24,513 bases of DNA from a virus: the IMG/VR virus record IMGVR_UViG_3300025000_000404, positions 1-24,513 of that record, one strand, 5' to 3'. Positions 3,315 to 23,689 of this stretch are shown here, one piece after another (the first letter of the stretch is position 1; the number at the start of each line of letters is the position of its first letter). A model generated the notes under the pieces. That model was not told where the DNA came from and ran no database searches. It worked only from the letters and a program-made list of their open reading frames with translations. The position numbers and the translations under genes are program-made.

Positions 3315-3598
3315 ACCACGAAGCTAAAATGAAAGCCTTGAAACAAATCTTTGATGATTGCCTACAAATTATGGACGCTAAAGGGCGTGATTATTCGGGT
3401 ACGACAAACGCTATGAGTAACTTTGAAGACTTTGGCTATAAAGGCATTGTCGTTCGTATAGGTGATAAGTATCACAGACTAAAAAATTTAACCAAATCAG
3501 AAGCGGCTGTAGATGAAAGCATTGAAGATACTTTAAAAGACTTACTCAGCTATTCGGCTTTAGCTTTAATAATGAAAGAAATTGAAGACTGTGGCTGA
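3311..3598 (+). CDS. Nucleotide modification associated domain 1 (DUF1599) protein
   Basis: This 95-residue protein matches the DUF1599 / NMAD1 pattern. AKGRDYSG (23-30) is followed by AMSNFEDFGYKGIVVRIGDK (34-53), then HRLKNL, then DESIEDTLKDLLSYSALALI (68-87). The fold is expected to be all-alpha and related to MazG-type enzymes. The family is found with phage enzymes that make or handle modified nucleotides. The biochemical activity is not established, and I infer a nucleotide-pool role. The start is GTG at 3311, overlapping the preceding TGA (GTGA), with AGAGGTG upstream. It is encoded directly after the DUF550 protein, so both may act on the same substrate. Confidence 0.8.
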   Translation: MNHEAKMKALKQIFDDCLQIMDAKGRDYSGTTNAMSNFEDFGYKGIVVRIGDKYHRLKNLTKSEAAVDESIEDTLKDLLSYSALALIMKEIEDCG

Positions 3599-3758
3599 TC
3601 CCGCAAAAGCTCCCAAAACTTCAATAGAGGACAAGCGCAAGCTAAACAAACAAGCTTGTATTAAAGTTCCTTGCAACAAAATTTATAACAAACTTGCTTT
3701 TCCTTGTACCTTTTGTCCGAATGAGAAAATCTGGTTAGCTTTGCATAAAAACTCTTGA
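3591..3758 (+). CDS. Short Cys-containing hypothetical protein (55 aa)
   Basis: A 55-residue ORF opens with GTG at 3591 inside the end of the DUF1599 gene (8-base overlap). It carries Cys23, VPC28, and PCTFCPN (38-44), a possible zinc-knuckle arrangement. It fills the gap to the ligase gene, and its stop lies inside the next predicted -35 box. Support is positional and compositional only. I recognise no family and give no function. The GTG start has no strong Shine-Dalgarno, so expression would depend on coupling. Confidence 0.45.
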   Translation: MADPAKAPKTSIEDKRKLNKQACIKVPCNKIYNKLAFPCTFCPNEKIWLALHKNS

Positions 3759-3783
3759 CAATCAAACTGAAGTATGAGATAAA
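3755..3783 (+). promoter_or_regulatory. Possible internal promoter upstream of DNA ligase
   Basis: A perfect TTGACA (3755-3760) lies 17 bases before GATAAA (3778-3783), which matches TATAAT at 4 of 6 positions. It sits in one of the few real gaps (57 bases) of the operon, just ahead of the ligase start at 3816. The -10 is weak, so this is tentative. Confidence 0.45.
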
Positions 3784-3815
3784 GAATTATACTTCATATT
3801 TGAAAGGCAAATAAA

Positions 3816-4754
3816 ATGAAACCAATGAAACCAGTAACAGTTGAAAACGATCAACTTAAAGACCTTCGCTTTCCACTCATAGCAAGCCTAAAACTTGACG
3901 GTATTCGTTGTGTGATTGTTGACGGAGAACCGCTGTCAAATACTTTAAAACGTATTCCGAATAATCACATTTACGAATCTTTAAAGAAATGGGGTTACAC
4001 AGGTTTTGATGGTGAACTGCTTCTTTGCAACGAAGATAACCCAAATCAACCGGGATTGCATAACTTCAATGATGTTCAATCTGCTGTAATGAACAAAGCA
4101 GGTACTCCAAACTTTATATTGTGGGTATTTGATGTTTTCGGTTGTTTACCTTCAATGCCTTTTGCTTCACGTTTAAATCTTGTTAAAGGCATTTCTGCGG
4201 CGCAACCTGCCAATTGCAAAAGCTTTATAAAGTTTCTTCCTCAAGTCCTGTGCAACACCCTGGCCGAAGTTATGGCATTTGAGGAATGGGCCTTGACAGC
4301 CGGTTACGAAGGAATTATGCTGCGCTCCTTAACTGGCACTTATAAATTCGGTCGTTCAACTTTCAAGGAACATTTTCTGCTTCGCCGCAAGCCATTTGTT
4401 ACTGAAGAATGCGTAGTGATCGGCTTTGTTGAAGCTCAAACGAACACGAACGAAGCATATCAAAACGAACTCGGTCATACTAAACGCAGTTCATCTCAAG
4501 ACGGGCTTGTTCCAGCCGGAACGCTTGGTTCGTTCATCGTTAAAAATAAGAAATGGGGTCAATTTACACTTGGTTGCGGCAAACTTACTCATGCTGAACG
4601 TCAATTAATTTGGGATGAAAAAGCGGCATATCTCGGCAATGTCGCAACGTTCAAATATCAGTCAATTGGAACTAAAGACAAGCCTCGTATCTTAACCTTT
4701 CAACACTTTCGTAATCAGGCTGATATGACGGCTGAACAACTTGCTTTACTGTGA
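3816..4754 (+). CDS. ATP-dependent DNA ligase
   Basis: This 312-residue protein is a compact phage-type ATP-dependent ligase, which seals nicks using an enzyme-adenylate intermediate. Motif I KLDGIR has Lys26 as the predicted AMP-linked residue. Motif III is FDGEL (64-68), motif IV is EGIMLR (165-170), and motif V-like LRRK is at 189-192. A C-terminal OB-fold with GTLGSFIVKNKKWGQFTLG follows. The length is that of minimal ligases without an extra N-terminal DNA-binding domain. The ATG is preceded by GAAAGG. The stop overlaps a GTG that opens a small zinc-ribbon ORF. It probably joins Okazaki-type or repair nicks during phage replication. Confidence 0.92.
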   Translation: MKPMKPVTVENDQLKDLRFPLIASLKLDGIRCVIVDGEPLSNTLKRIPNNHIYESLKKWGYTGFDGELLLCNEDNPNQPGLHNFNDVQSAVMNKAGTPNFILWVFDVFGCLPSMPFASRLNLVKGISAAQPANCKSFIKFLPQVLCNTLAEVMAFEEWALTAGYEGIMLRSLTGTYKFGRSTFKEHFLLRRKPFVTEECVVIGFVEAQTNTNEAYQNELGHTKRSSSQDGLVPAGTLGSFIVKNKKWGQFTLGCGKLTHAERQLIWDEKAAYLGNVATFKYQSIGTKDKPRILTFQHFRNQADMTAEQLALL

Positions 4755-8330: not shown

Positions 8331-8485
8331 AAGTTAGCAGATTAATTGAATATGAAGGTTCTGAGCAATGGGTACAGAGAACGTTAGATAAGTCTTTGCC
8401 TGAAGGTATAACTAAATTAGGCACTGAGTTTAGCATTACTATTACAACTTTGAAAGAAAATGAAGAAGCTAAGAGGATTAAATGA
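8327..8485 (+). CDS. Conserved small hypothetical protein (52 aa)
   Basis: The ATG at 8327 overlaps the nuclease stop (ATGA), and the TGA overlaps the helicase ATG (ATGA). It begins MKVSRLIEYEG and continues WVQRTLDKSLPEG, a pattern I recall in tiny phage proteins beside replication nucleases and helicases. It is mixed alpha/beta with no cysteines. It may be an accessory subunit of one of its neighbours, judging only from tight coupling. Confidence 0.6.
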   Translation: MKVSRLIEYEGSEQWVQRTLDKSLPEGITKLGTEFSITITTLKENEEAKRIK

Positions 8486-11187
8486 GTTTTTCACCTTGGC
8501 CTTTTCAAACTGAAGCTTTATACTCTGTCTTAAACTACTTCAAAGACAACGCAACTGGCAATCCAGTTGTATGTATGCCTACAGGATGCCACGCCAAAGG
8601 AACCAAAATACTTATGTATGACGGTTCTGTAAAAATAGTCGAAGATGTAAAAATTGGTGATAAACTAATGGGTCCAGACAGCGAACCTAGAACTGTTCTT
8701 AATTTAGCTAGAGGCAATGAACAAATGGTTCGCATTGTTCCCACAAAAGGAGAATCTTTTGAAGTAAACATAAGTCACATTCTTTCTTTATATAAGGTAA
8801 ACGAAAGATCGGAAAATAGCGGCAGAATATATGAGTCAACTGAACCAGCATTGTGCAATATTTCAATAAAAGATTATTTACAAAAATCTGCTTATTTTAA
8901 ACATCTTCATAAAATAAGACGTGCTGGTGTAGAATTTCAAAACAAATCGTTTTTACCACTACCTCCTTATTTTATAGGCTTATTTTTAGGAGACGGAGGT
9001 TATTCTGCAAATACGGTTAATTTTACTTCTATGGATGAAGTTTTAATGGATTATGTTAAAGAATTAATACTTTCAACAGGGGATACTTATTCAACAACAG
9101 TTAAAAAAAATAATAAAGCGTACAGTATTCAATTAAGAAGAGAAAAGAGAGATAGAACTAAAAAACCAATAATAGCCACACACTTAGAACGTTTAAGCTT
9201 ACAGGGGGTTACTTCTGGAACTAAGTTTGTGCCAACCTGTTATAAAATAACTACTAGGCAAAATAGACTTGAAGTGTTGGCTGGTTTAATTGATACAGAT
9301 GGACACCTTGACGGACACATGTACGATTATATAACTAAGTCCAAACTATTAGCCCTAGATGTTGTTTTTATAGCAAGAAGTTTGGGATTTGCCGCTTATG
9401 TCAAATCTTGTAAAAAAGCTTCCCAAACTGGTTTTGTCGGGGATTATTTTAGAGTTTCTATTAGCGGAAATGTTATTGAAATACCTTGCCGATTGCCTCA
9501 CAAAAGAGCAATGATTAGAAATCAAAAGAAAGGTGTTTTGATAACAAGCTTTAAGACTGAAATTTTACCTAACAATGACTTTTACGGCTTCGCTCTTGAC
9601 AAAGATCATTTATATTTAACAAGCGATTTCGTGGTTCATCATAATACAGGTAAAGGCAGTTTGATAGCAATGCTAATAGATTATATTCTTTACAATTGGC
9701 CTAATCAACGAATCTTGCAACTTGTTCACACTAAAGAACTTGTTCAACAAAACTACAACGATTTGTTGATGATAAACGCCTTATCTCCTGCCGGTATTTA
9801 TTGTGCGGGTCTTGACCGCAAGGAAAGTGCAAACTCTGTAGTATTTGGTTCACTTGGCTCGGTACGAACTAATGCCGAAGCATTTGGTTTCAGAGATTTA
9901 ATCTTGATTGACGAAGGACACGCTGTATCTCCTGACGAAGAGACAGGCTACAGGCAAATTGAAGCTACTTTACGGCTTATAAATCCTAACATTCGAGTAG
10001 TGGCTTTTACAGCAACTGACTACAGATTGGGACAAGGAAAACTTACAGACGGCGACAATCCGTTATTTACAGATGTATGTTTTGACATAACAAAGTTACA
10101 TTCGTTCAATAGACTTATTTCAGAAGGTTATCTTTCGCCGTTAATTGTTCCAAGTCAGTTAAAAACGCAACTTGATGTTTCAGGTGTTGCAATTAGCAAA
10201 GGTGAGTTCAACCAGGGACAATTGCAAAAGGCTGTTGATAAGCAGGAAATAACTTATGCTGCAATTCAAGAAGCTGTTAGATACGGATATGATAGAAACT
10301 GTTGGCTGGTATTTGCTTCTGGAATAGAGCATTGTGAACATATAAGCGACATGCTGCAAAGTTTTGGAATAAGCTCAAGCTTTGTTCATAGTAAAATTTC
10401 AGACGACGAACGCGACGAACGACTCGCTGCATTTAAGGAAGGAAAAATTAAAGCAATTGTAGGTTTTAGAATTTTAACAACTGGCTTTAATCATCCTCCT
10501 ATAGATTTAATTATTGATTTGTACCCTACTGTTTCACCTGTGATGCACGTTCAAAAGAACGGCAGAGGAACTAGAACTTATAACGGTAACAATCCTAACT
10601 TTCCATATATTAAATCCAACTGTTTGGTTTTAGACTTTAGTGGCAACACTAAACGTATCGGACCCGTGAACGATCCGATTATACCTAAGAAAAAAGGTGA
10701 TAAAACAGGCGATGTGCCTGTAAAGATATGCGCTGCTTGTGGGCTGTATAATCATTGTTCGGCTAGATATTGCGGCGGACACCCTGAAGCAAGTGCCGAA
10801 GGTTGCGGCGCTGAGTTCGAGTTTCAAACTAAATTGCTTAGAACAGCGGGAACAGCAGAACTCATAAAAGGTGATTATACAGAAGTACAATATGAAACTT
10901 ATGACGTAACTAAAGTTATATACCACAAACATCAAAAAATAGATAAAAAACCTTGCATTAAAGTTAGTTATTACAGTGGAATATTAAGATTTACAGAATA
11001 TTTATTTCCTGAATCAGTTGGCAGAATTAAAACCAATTTTGTACATTGGTGGCAACAAAGAAGTTCTTTAGAAGTTCCTGTAACAGTTGAAGACGCTTTA
11101 ATTTACTGTCAGCAATTGCGTTGTCCTAAAAAGATTAAAGTTCAAGTTGATAGTCAATTCAAAAATATCATCGGAGTTGAATGGTGA
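8482..11187 (+). CDS. DEAD/DEAH-type superfamily 2 helicase interrupted by an intein
   Basis: This 901-residue precursor loses 353 residues (36-388) on splicing, leaving a 548-residue helicase. The Walker A loop is split: PTG ends the N-extein, TGKGS begins the C-extein, and the two join as PTGTGKGS. Motif II is LILIDEGH (about 473-480), motif III AFTATDYR, and motif VI HVQKNGRGTR (about 689-698). A Cys-rich region CAACGLYNHC...CGGH...CGAEF (about 750-780) looks like a zinc ribbon. It is an ATP-driven duplex translocase or unwinding enzyme, probably helping replication or recombination. The host gene is inactive until the intein leaves, because the P-loop is broken. The ATG is behind AAGAGG and overlaps the previous stop. 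Confidence 0.92.
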   Translation: MSFSPWPFQTEALYSVLNYFKDNATGNPVVCMPTGCHAKGTKILMYDGSVKIVEDVKIGDKLMGPDSEPRTVLNLARGNEQMVRIVPTKGESFEVNISHILSLYKVNERSENSGRIYESTEPALCNISIKDYLQKSAYFKHLHKIRRAGVEFQNKSFLPLPPYFIGLFLGDGGYSANTVNFTSMDEVLMDYVKELILSTGDTYSTTVKKNNKAYSIQLRREKRDRTKKPIIATHLERLSLQGVTSGTKFVPTCYKITTRQNRLEVLAGLIDTDGHLDGHMYDYITKSKLLALDVVFIARSLGFAAYVKSCKKASQTGFVGDYFRVSISGNVIEIPCRLPHKRAMIRNQKKGVLITSFKTEILPNNDFYGFALDKDHLYLTSDFVVHHNTGKGSLIAMLIDYILYNWPNQRILQLVHTKELVQQNYNDLLMINALSPAGIYCAGLDRKESANSVVFGSLGSVRTNAEAFGFRDLILIDEGHAVSPDEETGYRQIEATLRLINPNIRVVAFTATDYRLGQGKLTDGDNPLFTDVCFDITKLHSFNRLISEGYLSPLIVPSQLKTQLDVSGVAISKGEFNQGQLQKAVDKQEITYAAIQEAVRYGYDRNCWLVFASGIEHCEHISDMLQSFGISSSFVHSKISDDERDERLAAFKEGKIKAIVGFRILTTGFNHPPIDLIIDLYPTVSPVMHVQKNGRGTRTYNGNNPNFPYIKSNCLVLDFSGNTKRIGPVNDPIIPKKKGDKTGDVPVKICAACGLYNHCSARYCGGHPEASAEGCGAEFEFQTKLLRTAGTAELIKGDYTEVQYETYDVTKVIYHKHQKIDKKPCIKVSYYSGILRFTEYLFPESVGRIKTNFVHWWQQRSSLEVPVTVEDALIYCQQLRCPKKIKVQVDSQFKNIIGVEW
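8587..9645 (+). mobile_element. Intein with LAGLIDADG homing endonuclease, in helicase Walker A
   Basis: The 353-residue insertion starts at Cys36 (CHAKGTKILMYDGSVK, splicing block A) and ends at HHN (386-388), followed by Thr as the +1 nucleophile. The stretch VNISHILSLY (about 95) resembles block B with its conserved His. NDFYGFALDKDHLYLTSDFV resembles block F. Two endonuclease motifs are seen: FIGLFLGDGG (from residue 164) and LAGLIDTDGH (from about residue 266), with acidic residues kept. The splicing and homing parts therefore look intact. The intein stretch appears more AT-rich than the surrounding exteins, which suggests separate origin. Confidence 0.95.
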
Positions 11188-21400: not shown

Positions 21401-22656
21401 GAACTGACACCCAAAGGCAAAATTGGAAATTCAGTATCAGCCCAATAATCATTTGAATTGGTAAACGAACCTTTTGCAATATTTACCTTATCGCTTTTAT
21501 TGGCTCCACCTTTAAAACTAATTCCGCCATTCAACCAAGATTCATCAATAGTTGCAACGGAACTTGCTGTAGTGCCCACATAGAGTTTCCATTCGCCTGC
21601 TGAAAATACTGCATCACCAGCACAGGACGTAAGCATATCTCTGATAAACTGAGTCGGAGGACCGTCAAGTTTAATAATACCGTTCAAGGTGTAACGCGGT
21701 TCTTCGTTTAACTCCAAGCCACTATAAACTACTTCATCGCAGATATTAGCCGCTGCTAAAAACGAAGCTTCGTTTACTTCATCGCTATCAGCACCACATC
21801 CACCTAATTCAATTGAAGTCAACAGATAGTCACGAATACACAACGCATTATTAGAACTGAACGCTACAATTCCGGTTCGCGGGTCTTCTACTTTTTTTCC
21901 TCTAATTACTGCTTTAATCGCAGGTATTCCCGAAGGAAATAGAGTTTCGCTGTACTTCAGCCGAACTCTACAATAAGCAACACCTAACAACTTGTGGTTT
22001 GCGGTCCAAACTCCGTTCGATGCTGCTATTAACGTAACGTCTGCTGCGGTTTGACTTCCATCATAATAGGTAATAGTAACAAAGTCAGTAAACGGTGCTA
22101 AAATATCCCAAGCAGGTATTGAAGTAACTGTTTCTACATCTTCGTAATATGTTTCTGGTATTTGAACCGTCTCACCACCGTCGTTAAGTATGAGATTGCC
22201 TTCACCATCAACCAAATTGACATATCTGAAACGTTCTACACTAGCCGTAGTGGTTGTTGTAGTAACAGAAGATCGTGCAACACATTTATCGTCAAACCAT
22301 ATTTCATCATAGCCGTCAATTTCATGTCCTGCAAATATACAAATAGCGTCAAGATACTCGTTTTTAGTTCCAGAAGTACAAGCGTAAGCGAGTTGATTGC
22401 CAACACGAGTTCTACCGTAAATTACAGTTCTGGCATTCAACGCGCTTTGTGCTTGAACTTCACGATCACGCCGCATATCAGGTGTAATCATGTGTTTGAA
22501 TGCAGACCAGTATTCAGGCATTCTGCCGATGTTGCCGAAACTACCAGGAGTCCACGAAGCGCCTGAATACTTTACAGCAAAGTCGTCCATCAAAGCCAAT
22601 GAGCCGCTACCTGGATCAATAAAACCGGATACTATTACAGCAGCATCACAACCCAT
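18448..22656 (-). CDS. Tail-tip / host-specificity protein (J-like central hub)
   Basis: This is a 1402-residue protein. The N-terminal third carries the tail-hub core (MRRDREVQAQSALNARTVIY at 61-80; PPTQFIRDMLTSCAGD at 333-348). Next comes an insert of carbohydrate-binding-like repeats (about 411-510). The core resumes at AEDGGEVLTANLVLPF and AQRLAKIALEKSRRG. Fibronectin type III-like domains follow (about 633-725 and beyond). A second CBM-like module is AYDVDDLVRYTGNLYRC, then a Ser/Thr-rich coiled coil. The C-terminal region has YSVKIDNNGYVSGFGL and IIVADKFSI, as in lambda J (DUF1983 type). It is the probable tip protein that contacts the receptor. The ATG sits behind GGAGG and overlaps the preceding stop (TAATG). 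Confidence 0.9.
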   Translation of the reverse strand: MGCDAAVIVSGFIDPGSGSLALMDDFAVKYSGASWTPGSFGNIGRMPEYWSAFKHMITPDMRRDREVQAQSALNARTVIYGRTRVGNQLAYACTSGTKNEYLDAICIFAGHEIDGYDEIWFDDKCVARSSVTTTTTTASVERFRYVNLVDGEGNLILNDGGETVQIPETYYEDVETVTSIPAWDILAPFTDFVTITYYDGSQTAADVTLIAASNGVWTANHKLLGVAYCRVRLKYSETLFPSGIPAIKAVIRGKKVEDPRTGIVAFSSNNALCIRDYLLTSIELGGCGADSDEVNEASFLAAANICDEVVYSGLELNEEPRYTLNGIIKLDGPPTQFIRDMLTSCAGDAVFSAGEWKLYVGTTASSVATIDESWLNGGISFKGGANKSDKVNIAKGSFTNSNDYWADTEFPILPLGVSSPPNSEYWAVVVSPTQYVAANTYNTGSYVSLAGKIYKAYNDVPVATPPPDASYWLIVDPYDSSLAYAQSSIVQNLGVVYIALVYVPISNAYLAEDGGEVLTANLVLPFTITSSEAQRLAKIALEKSRRGFSLSYPCNHKAFELDVMDVVTVTNDLMGINGLFRIVDWSFSFMGGTSLSLVQYDPNIYNWIPGDSTPLEAPDLTNLPDPLFVSPPSAIVLTPIVYDSNGGTASRVDLLVSWTAGGPGELNYELQYALINTDWTDIILVGSGTSYTIQSLATGYYNVRVRGVNSLGAASVWVDAVTIFIPNPDTLVPDITGFELFGQGNNTEFLGRDVVLKWNKPTPRSSDVVTDVAAPEVYQGWLKYYELKVMTSTGVVLRTEYLTVEGYTYTFENNYIDNAGSPKRSLNFELRAVATWGDVSANAAKLSVSNPSPSALTGIVTERIIGAFSISFDPLTELDVAGYLIHASQTTGFTPGETTLINRGPETSFYYTLLAVGDWFVKVAAYDSFGEDGLNWSDQVTVSVLPTIDIMLADLTGQLTESQLYGDLTARIDLIDTSGTGLVDLLAATNASLASVASQVSGLLSTDFDTAVAYDVDDLVRYTGNLYRCILATTPPSELPTNTTYWELIGAYASLADGVAAQAVAIEDLDTRVTTAEGTIISQSSDIVALINTVDDPSTGVSALSSAVTILESDVSSVQGTVSSHTSSISSLTSSVNSNNAAIVSEASTRANADSAIAGSLTTLQSTVGSHTTSIATQTTSINGILGKYSVKIDNNGYVSGFGLISTNNNAAPTSEFIIVADKFSIAPVATSPTANDNSPFFYLTTPTVVNGVTLSAGMYIKRAYIGEATVDTLQIAGNAVTIPVSAYSSGSVVVGTVGVTTLQSAVITVNGTTPVSIMVSCGTQNNANQSMIMRISRDSTVLRDLVAGPNSVYNNTSSFSFHVSDTPSAGTHTYYFSAYIADGSANGGAFSRGLTLIGSKR
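21127..21426 (-). other. Carbohydrate-binding-like insert inside the J-like core
   Basis: Residues about 411-510 fall between two core pieces that are normally close together: DYWADTEFP and NAYLAEDGGE. The insert has one full CBM5/12-like unit (YVAANTYNTGSYVSLAGKIY, then a Pro-rich turn and ASYWLIV). It is flanked by a C-half unit (PPNSEYWAVV) and an N-half unit (SSLAYAQSSIVQNLGVVYIA). It was probably gained as tandem modules. Confidence 0.6.
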
Positions 22657-23108
22657 TACAGCACCTCCAGATAAGAGGTTTCAAACTGCTTTGCGCCTTG
22701 ACGTTCGTACAACAAACCACTTCTGTCTGCATCACCGGCAACACGAGAAGCATTCCATATTAAGAAGTTACAACCTTTAGCTTTTGCTAATTTTTTAGCA
22801 GCTTTCTTTAATTTCAAACCATGTCCTCGTGCTGCATTACTTACATAGAAACAACATTCGTTGGCAATTAAACCAGGACCAACGTGATTAAGCCGATATG
22901 ACAAACCTAAAAAGCCCATGACTATTTCATTTGATAGTAATACCAAAACGTCGCCGTTTCGCAAACGCAATTGATTCATGGTTTCCAGACCTATTTCAAT
23001 ATCAATAGGCAAACCATACTCAGCACCATGAGCTTCGGCAGCCCATTCTTCAGCTACCGGACGCAAAATGTTTATGTCGTCAACTTGGTCTAAAATAGCT
23101 ATTGACAT
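22656..23108 (-). CDS. GNAT-family N-acetyltransferase-like protein in tail module
   Basis: This is a 150-residue protein. The GNAT core shows DVLVLLSNEIVMGFLGLSYR (beta strands), ANECCFYVSNAARGHGLKLK with the acetyl-CoA loop ARGHGLKL, then KKLAKAKGCNFLIWNAS and LLYERQGAKQFETSYL at the C-terminus. This is a complete single-domain acetyltransferase order. The start is ATG 23106-23108, preceded by GAGGG, and it overlaps the previous stop (TAATG). A 13-codon upstream extension is open but less likely. It lies between tail genes, where lambda-like phages usually encode a NlpC/P60 tail peptidase. It may modify a tail or host protein, or be a tail-associated structural GNAT; the substrate is unknown. 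Confidence 0.78.
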   Translation of the reverse strand: MSIAILDQVDDINILRPVAEEWAAEAHGAEYGLPIDIEIGLETMNQLRLRNGDVLVLLSNEIVMGFLGLSYRLNHVGPGLIANECCFYVSNAARGHGLKLKKAAKKLAKAKGCNFLIWNASRVAGDADRSGLLYERQGAKQFETSYLEVL

Positions 23109-23689
23109 TAATCCCTCGGATCGGGCAAGAATGCAGCCCTTGGCCAAATGAGTTTTTTCTGTGACATTTGCGCTATAAACTCCATACCCAAATCACCTGG
23201 ATGAAGTTGCTGCTGCTGAACATTTGTATATAAAATCTTTTGAGGTCTTTCCCAATCAGCAAACCTCGATTTCAAAGTTACAGTAAAACCTGCACTTGCG
23301 CCCATATTGCCATTAATGCTATCAATAGAACCTTTAAACAATAGAACTGGAGTTTCGGTTACAGGTTGATCCCCTTCATCAAGCGGCATAAAGTGAACAT
23401 AAGCTTTTCTGTTAATATAAGCTTGACCTACAAGCAACGCTACTATCTCTTGCTTTATACCTGAAACACTTACGGTAACACCAGAAGCCTTAACACCGCT
23501 TTCTTCCTTAACAGGAGAAATGCTTGTAAGTTCGCCTGTACCCACATAAGTAACAGAGTCAAAAGAGTAATTACCAAAACCTGAATGCCAAGCTGCATTA
23601 CCTCCGTCAAAGCACAAGCGCACAAAGTAAATACCTCTAACTGTACTTTGAACCAATGCTGTAGAAATAGCCGAATCTAAAGTTCTCAA
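23108..23689 (-). CDS. Tail protein (DUF2163-like, tail-tip assembly)
   Basis: This 193-residue beta-rich protein has VRGIYFVRLCFDGGNAAWHS, VTYVGTGELTSISPVKEESG and GVTVSVSGIKQEIVALLVG. KGSIDSIN and LKSRFADWERPQ follow, ending HPGDLGMEFIAQMSQKKLIW. This order is typical of the conserved tail proteins just upstream of tail-tip genes. The first confident start is TTG at 23687-23689. AGGAGG stands seven bases upstream and the codon overlaps the previous gene's TGA (TTGA). An in-frame ATG at 23749 would make a 64-base overlap and lacks that signal. The stop overlaps the GNAT start. Confidence 0.75.
   Translation of the reverse strand: MRTLDSAISTALVQSTVRGIYFVRLCFDGGNAAWHSGFGNYSFDSVTYVGTGELTSISPVKEESGVKASGVTVSVSGIKQEIVALLVGQAYINRKAYVHFMPLDEGDQPVTETPVLLFKGSIDSINGNMGASAGFTVTLKSRFADWERPQKILYTNVQQQQLHPGDLGMEFIAQMSQKKLIWPRAAFLPDPRD

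Follow-up and report, generated by a model that had tools for sequence, protein, structure and literature searches.

Inteins that interrupt the ATP-binding P-loop have been reviewed for DnaB, UvrD and RecA (PMC5874633), and the position between the Lys and the Thr of this loop has been called a classic insertion point (PMC5050341). For example, the TerL1-a and TerL1-b inteins of mycobacteriophages lie in P-loops, and representative TerL inteins are reported to splice and have been the subject of endonuclease tests (PMC5050341). In addition, the P-loop intein of P. horikoshii RadA is stated in PMC6195587 to disrupt ATPase activity, and a helicase intein has been reported from E. coli phage Shashou (PMC6776780).

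The window analysed here, a 24,513-base stretch of virus DNA (IMG/VR record IMGVR_UViG_3300025000_000404), carries what is almost certainly a PI-SceI (VMA1)-type class 1 intein at the PTG/xGK site of a phage SF2 helicase, and we expect it to splice and to home. Its anatomy can be read directly:

8482..11187, + strand: precursor open reading frame, a phage SF2 helicase (ResIII/Helicase_C, phrog_16) with intein, 901 aa
8482..8586, + strand: N-extein, 35 aa, ending in VVCMPTG, the first half of Walker A
8587..9645, + strand: class 1 intein with nested LAGLIDADG endonuclease, 353 aa, C1 to N353
8767..8778, + strand: block B, N61-I-S-H64 (NxxH, the norm for the intein family)
8977..9000, + strand: LAGLIDADG motif 1 (block C), GLFLGDGG, with the invariant catalytic D136
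9223..9243, + strand: block D-like K213-F-V-P-T-C-Y219, the Lys nearly invariant and the Pro invariant
9277..9303, + strand: LAGLIDADG motif 2 (block E), LAGLIDTDG, with invariant D236 and D238
9637..9645, + strand: block G, H351-H352-N353, the C-terminal splice junction, followed by the +1 Thr at 9646-9648
9646..11184, + strand: C-extein, 513 aa, beginning with TGKGS, the remainder of Walker A, and containing motifs DEGH and GRGTR

The insert corresponds to residues 36-388 of the precursor, opens with CHAKGTKIL and closes with FVVHHN immediately before TGKGS. The sequence-only reading had placed a 353-residue insert, with Cys first, HHN last and Thr next, at these positions, and its boundaries proved exact to the base. 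The 548 residues of the joined exteins read VVCMPTG/TGKGSL across the junction, in agreement with its description of a helicase P-loop that is broken after PTG and resumes at TGKGS. Pfam assigns Hom_end_hint (6.5e-19) and LAGLIDADG_3 (2.3e-10) to the insert and ResIII and Helicase_C to the flanks, and because intein, endonuclease and helicase domains share one reading frame, a chance arrangement is excluded. The flanks also match the phrog_16 (phage DNA helicase) profile at 9.2e-70 and retain the helicase motifs DEGH and GRGTR. No second intein copy was found in the contig.

The helicase gene is part of a replication block with genes for a ligase, a Sak4-like annealing protein, an SSB, a Cas4-type exonuclease, a clamp and a DNA polymerase. 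Rhodobacter phage RcThunderbird has its recombinase, SSB, Cas4 exonuclease, helicase, clamp and polymerase genes in a comparable order, and its helicase is uninterrupted. Elsewhere in the window, the minus strand carries a phosphoadenosine phosphosulfate reductase-like gene (1205-2230; phrog_424, 2.3e-50) and, amid tail genes, an acetyltransferase-like gene (22656-23147; phrog_1249).

The residues expected of a class 1 intein are all present (C1, block B H64, penultimate H352, terminal N353 and Thr+1), as are both LAGLIDADG motifs named in the earlier reading, each with an acidic catalytic residue (D136 and D238). Across an alignment of 48 family members, C1, H64, D136, D236, D238, H352 and N353 are invariant. 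Among 97 open reading frames with full-length matches to the intein, a set that includes the window's own and some duplicates, every intein starts with Cys, finishes with THN, HHN or NHN and is followed at +1 by Thr, Ser or Cys. A Hint fold is indicated both by the Hom_end_hint match and by the AlphaFold model (mean pLDDT 93.9), for which the top Foldseek match is PI-SceI (1ef0; E 1.6e-25, TM 0.80 by query length), followed after further PI-SceI entries by other inteins, Prp8 inteins among them, and by I-DmoI-type endonucleases. PI-SceI is also found by profile (E 1.9e-46). The proposal of an intein with a homing endonuclease in the Walker A loop is therefore upheld by its splice residues, by its PI-SceI-like fold and by the intein-free alleles described below. 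The sequence-only reading had also singled out block B, with Asn in place of Thr, as a variant worth noting. The NISH sequence is indeed there, but the novelty does not hold, since NxxH is found in 85 of the 97 family members, and N76 replaces the block B Thr in the VMA1 intein of yeast (PMC6805012).

By homology to class 1 inteins, splicing would begin with an N-S acyl shift at C1, aided by N61 and H64, and proceed through transesterification to Thr+1. Cyclization of N353 with the help of H352 would then leave a peptide bond joining PTG to TGK, and the predicted products are a 548-aa helicase and a 353-aa LAGLIDADG endonuclease. The latter would cut intein-free P-loop DNA in co-infecting phages, into which the intein would be copied by homing. 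Because the Walker A loop is split until splicing, the precursor is unlikely to bind ATP, and by homology to other P-loop inteins, such as that of P. horikoshii RadA, we infer that helicase activity requires splicing.

The ATP site is itself unusual after splicing, because the mature loop, PTGTGKGS (9646-9660 together with the PTG of the N-extein), has Gly at the Mg-coordinating position of GK[ST], whereas 70 of the 77 readable loops of its relatives have GKS (the others being five GKA, one GKG and one GKC, the last from an intein-interrupted loop). The absence of Ser or Thr directly after the Walker A Lys was overlooked in the first reading. The mature loop thus departs from the canonical GK[ST] of SF2 helicases, which is usual but not strictly defining in this helicase's family; the departure is outweighed by full-length identities of 45-61% to relatives. 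A single base change, AGC to GGC, would explain GKGS, and perhaps it reflects an assembly error. Loss of the Ser may be tolerated in this branch, since the nearest relative (L029) has GKA. Nevertheless, full ATPase activity of the spliced helicase is not assured, and the atypical GKGS allows some doubt about full helicase activity.

About 80 relatives of the helicase, collected from alignments (a related-locus search with the whole reading frame as query gave no match), read through the loop unbroken. These include L029, which is the best viral-contig match to the helicase at 61% identity and lacks the intein. In addition, the joined flanks share 48-49% identity over their entire length with the helicases of Lokivirus Shy, Pavpe01, RcThunderbird and KL1, in which PTGTGKS is unbroken. 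In a host tree of 92 helicases, from which intein sequence was left out, the window pairs with intein-free L029 (SH-aLRT 99), L111 groups with intein-free L047 (98) and L109 groups with four intein-free rows (99), and at least four changes of intein presence or absence are required. The distribution of the intein among phage helicases is sporadic. The insert is therefore a mobile element and not a helicase domain, as each of the three inteins (window, L109 and L111) falls among intein-free relatives.

A comparison of alleles with and without the insert had been put forward as the way to separate an intein from a fixed, non-removable helicase domain of 353 residues. The in-frame position of the segment would suit such a domain, but the relatives uninterrupted at the same point favor an intein, as do the intein hallmarks and the presence of the same element in unrelated NTPases. 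A fixed domain is hardly conceivable, and it was rejected given that intein-free orthologs exist. A less remote possibility, albeit an unlikely one, is that the intein still splices while its endonuclease is dead, so that it is now inherited vertically without homing. A search for a recent homing event found none, the nearest intein being about 50% identical and the nearest helicase 61%, and this lack of a close allele with recent transfer is what a dead endonuclease would predict. The inteins of L109 and L111 also resemble their hosts in divergence (48-49% for the inteins, 45-50% for the hosts). Against this, both catalytic Asp residues, the block D Lys and the entire LAGLIDADG fold are intact, and the sporadic distribution argues for movement. 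Finally, perhaps the insert serves as a switch that, for instance through oxidation of C1, keeps the helicase off until conditions suit. There is precedent for conditional splicing in the P-loop intein DnaBi1 of M. smegmatis (PMC6195587), and the N-extein has an extra Cys at -5 (VVCMPTG), a position occupied mostly by Val in intein-bearing relatives and mostly by Ala in helicases that lack the intein. This Cys may, however, be neutral drift, and intein-free L046, L082 and L107 carry a Cys one position off; we regard such a switch as improbable. An intein competent for both splicing and homing is the reading that we prefer.

The family to which this intein belongs is already known, and the window adds one further phage P-loop intein. 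Relatives were detected in 514 phage records, several of them annotated as intein-containing helicases, and the insertion lies in or beside the Walker A motif at nearly all loci whose junctions were read. Two registers are evident among 92 distinct inteins, 61 lying before xGK (site-a) and 31 after GK (site-b), and the hosts include VirD4/TraG, VirB4/TrbE, SNF2, AAA, RecA, UvrD, DnaB with primase and several ResIII helicases. The intein tree requires only three register changes, whereas shuffled labels require 26 on average, a contrast to which near relatives add. The family appears to be specialized for ATP-binding loops across a wide range of unrelated enzymes, and the finding of one family in the Walker A loops of unrelated NTPases, with a tree sorted by register, is mildly novel. 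A DNA target stricter than the protein motif was sought in the 61 site-a and 31 site-b flanks, and because third codon positions are nearly unconserved there, no target was detected beyond the amino acid motif. We tentatively raise the possibility that the endonuclease of this lineage targets Walker A DNA and thereby moves across unrelated NTPase genes, in two register sub-lineages and with rare use of the look-alike AGKG/T of a tape measure gene.

That look-alike is found in Ruegeria phage vB_RpoS-V18, in which the tail tape measure protein is interrupted by a 139-aa mini-intein without LAGLIDADG motifs (3501-3917). The insertion is at AGKG/TLQMEEL, which resembles a P-loop, and over residues 1-66 the mini-intein shares 61% identity with the window intein. 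The interrupted tape measure match occurs in four Ruegeria phages (V18, V11, V7 and DSS3-P1), and the intein is missing from phage V16, whose sequence matches the joined flanks at 98.9% identity. In Salmonella phage JD02, the intein frame (2402-2641) ends once about 41 residues have matched, and the annotation splits the helicase into two open reading frames; either the intein is broken or has been deleted in part, or the break stems from sequencing error. A second intein-like region is present in addition to the P-loop intein in the hosts of Vibrio phage PS65A.1 (reading frame from 2375), L169 and L008.

Since many phages carry relatives of this intein, the window is an ordinary case, correct as observed. 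It offers a clean intein allele with intein-free sisters, suitable for homing tests. Of greater interest than the window site are the mini-intein of the tape measure gene and the P-loop family with its sorting by register. The family bears on whether P-loop clustering of inteins reflects endonuclease target sequence or selection for hard-to-delete sites.

In comparison with known systems, the best fold and profile match is PI-SceI, the S. cerevisiae VMA1 intein (PDB 1ef0, 1vde, 1lws), which shares the Hint domain and double-motif LAGLIDADG endonuclease, C1, an NxxH block B (N76; PMC6805012) and the terminal HN. It differs in length (454 aa compared with 353 aa) and in sequence (22-24% identity in the fold alignment), and, unlike PI-SceI, the window intein has as its host a phage helicase interrupted at the Walker A loop. 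The TerL1-a and TerL1-b inteins share the P-loop site and differ in their terminase hosts and remote sequence. The "intein-containing helicase" inteins of Jerseyvirus and Jedunavirus, for the latter of which a literature search turned up no paper, belong to the same intein family and also lie in Walker A, but after GK (the GK/T register), two residues downstream of the window site. Those in the same register as the window, PTG/xGK, are the helicase inteins of Klebsiella phage YX3973, Listonella phage phiHSIC and Escherichia phage PJ16, along with those of contigs L109, L111, L110 and L121. The phage helicase inteins at this site are of the same length class and 42-49% identical to the window intein, although the hosts in YX3973, phiHSIC and PJ16 are more distant SF2 helicase lineages, and some of these inteins are followed by Ser or Cys at +1 where the window has Thr.
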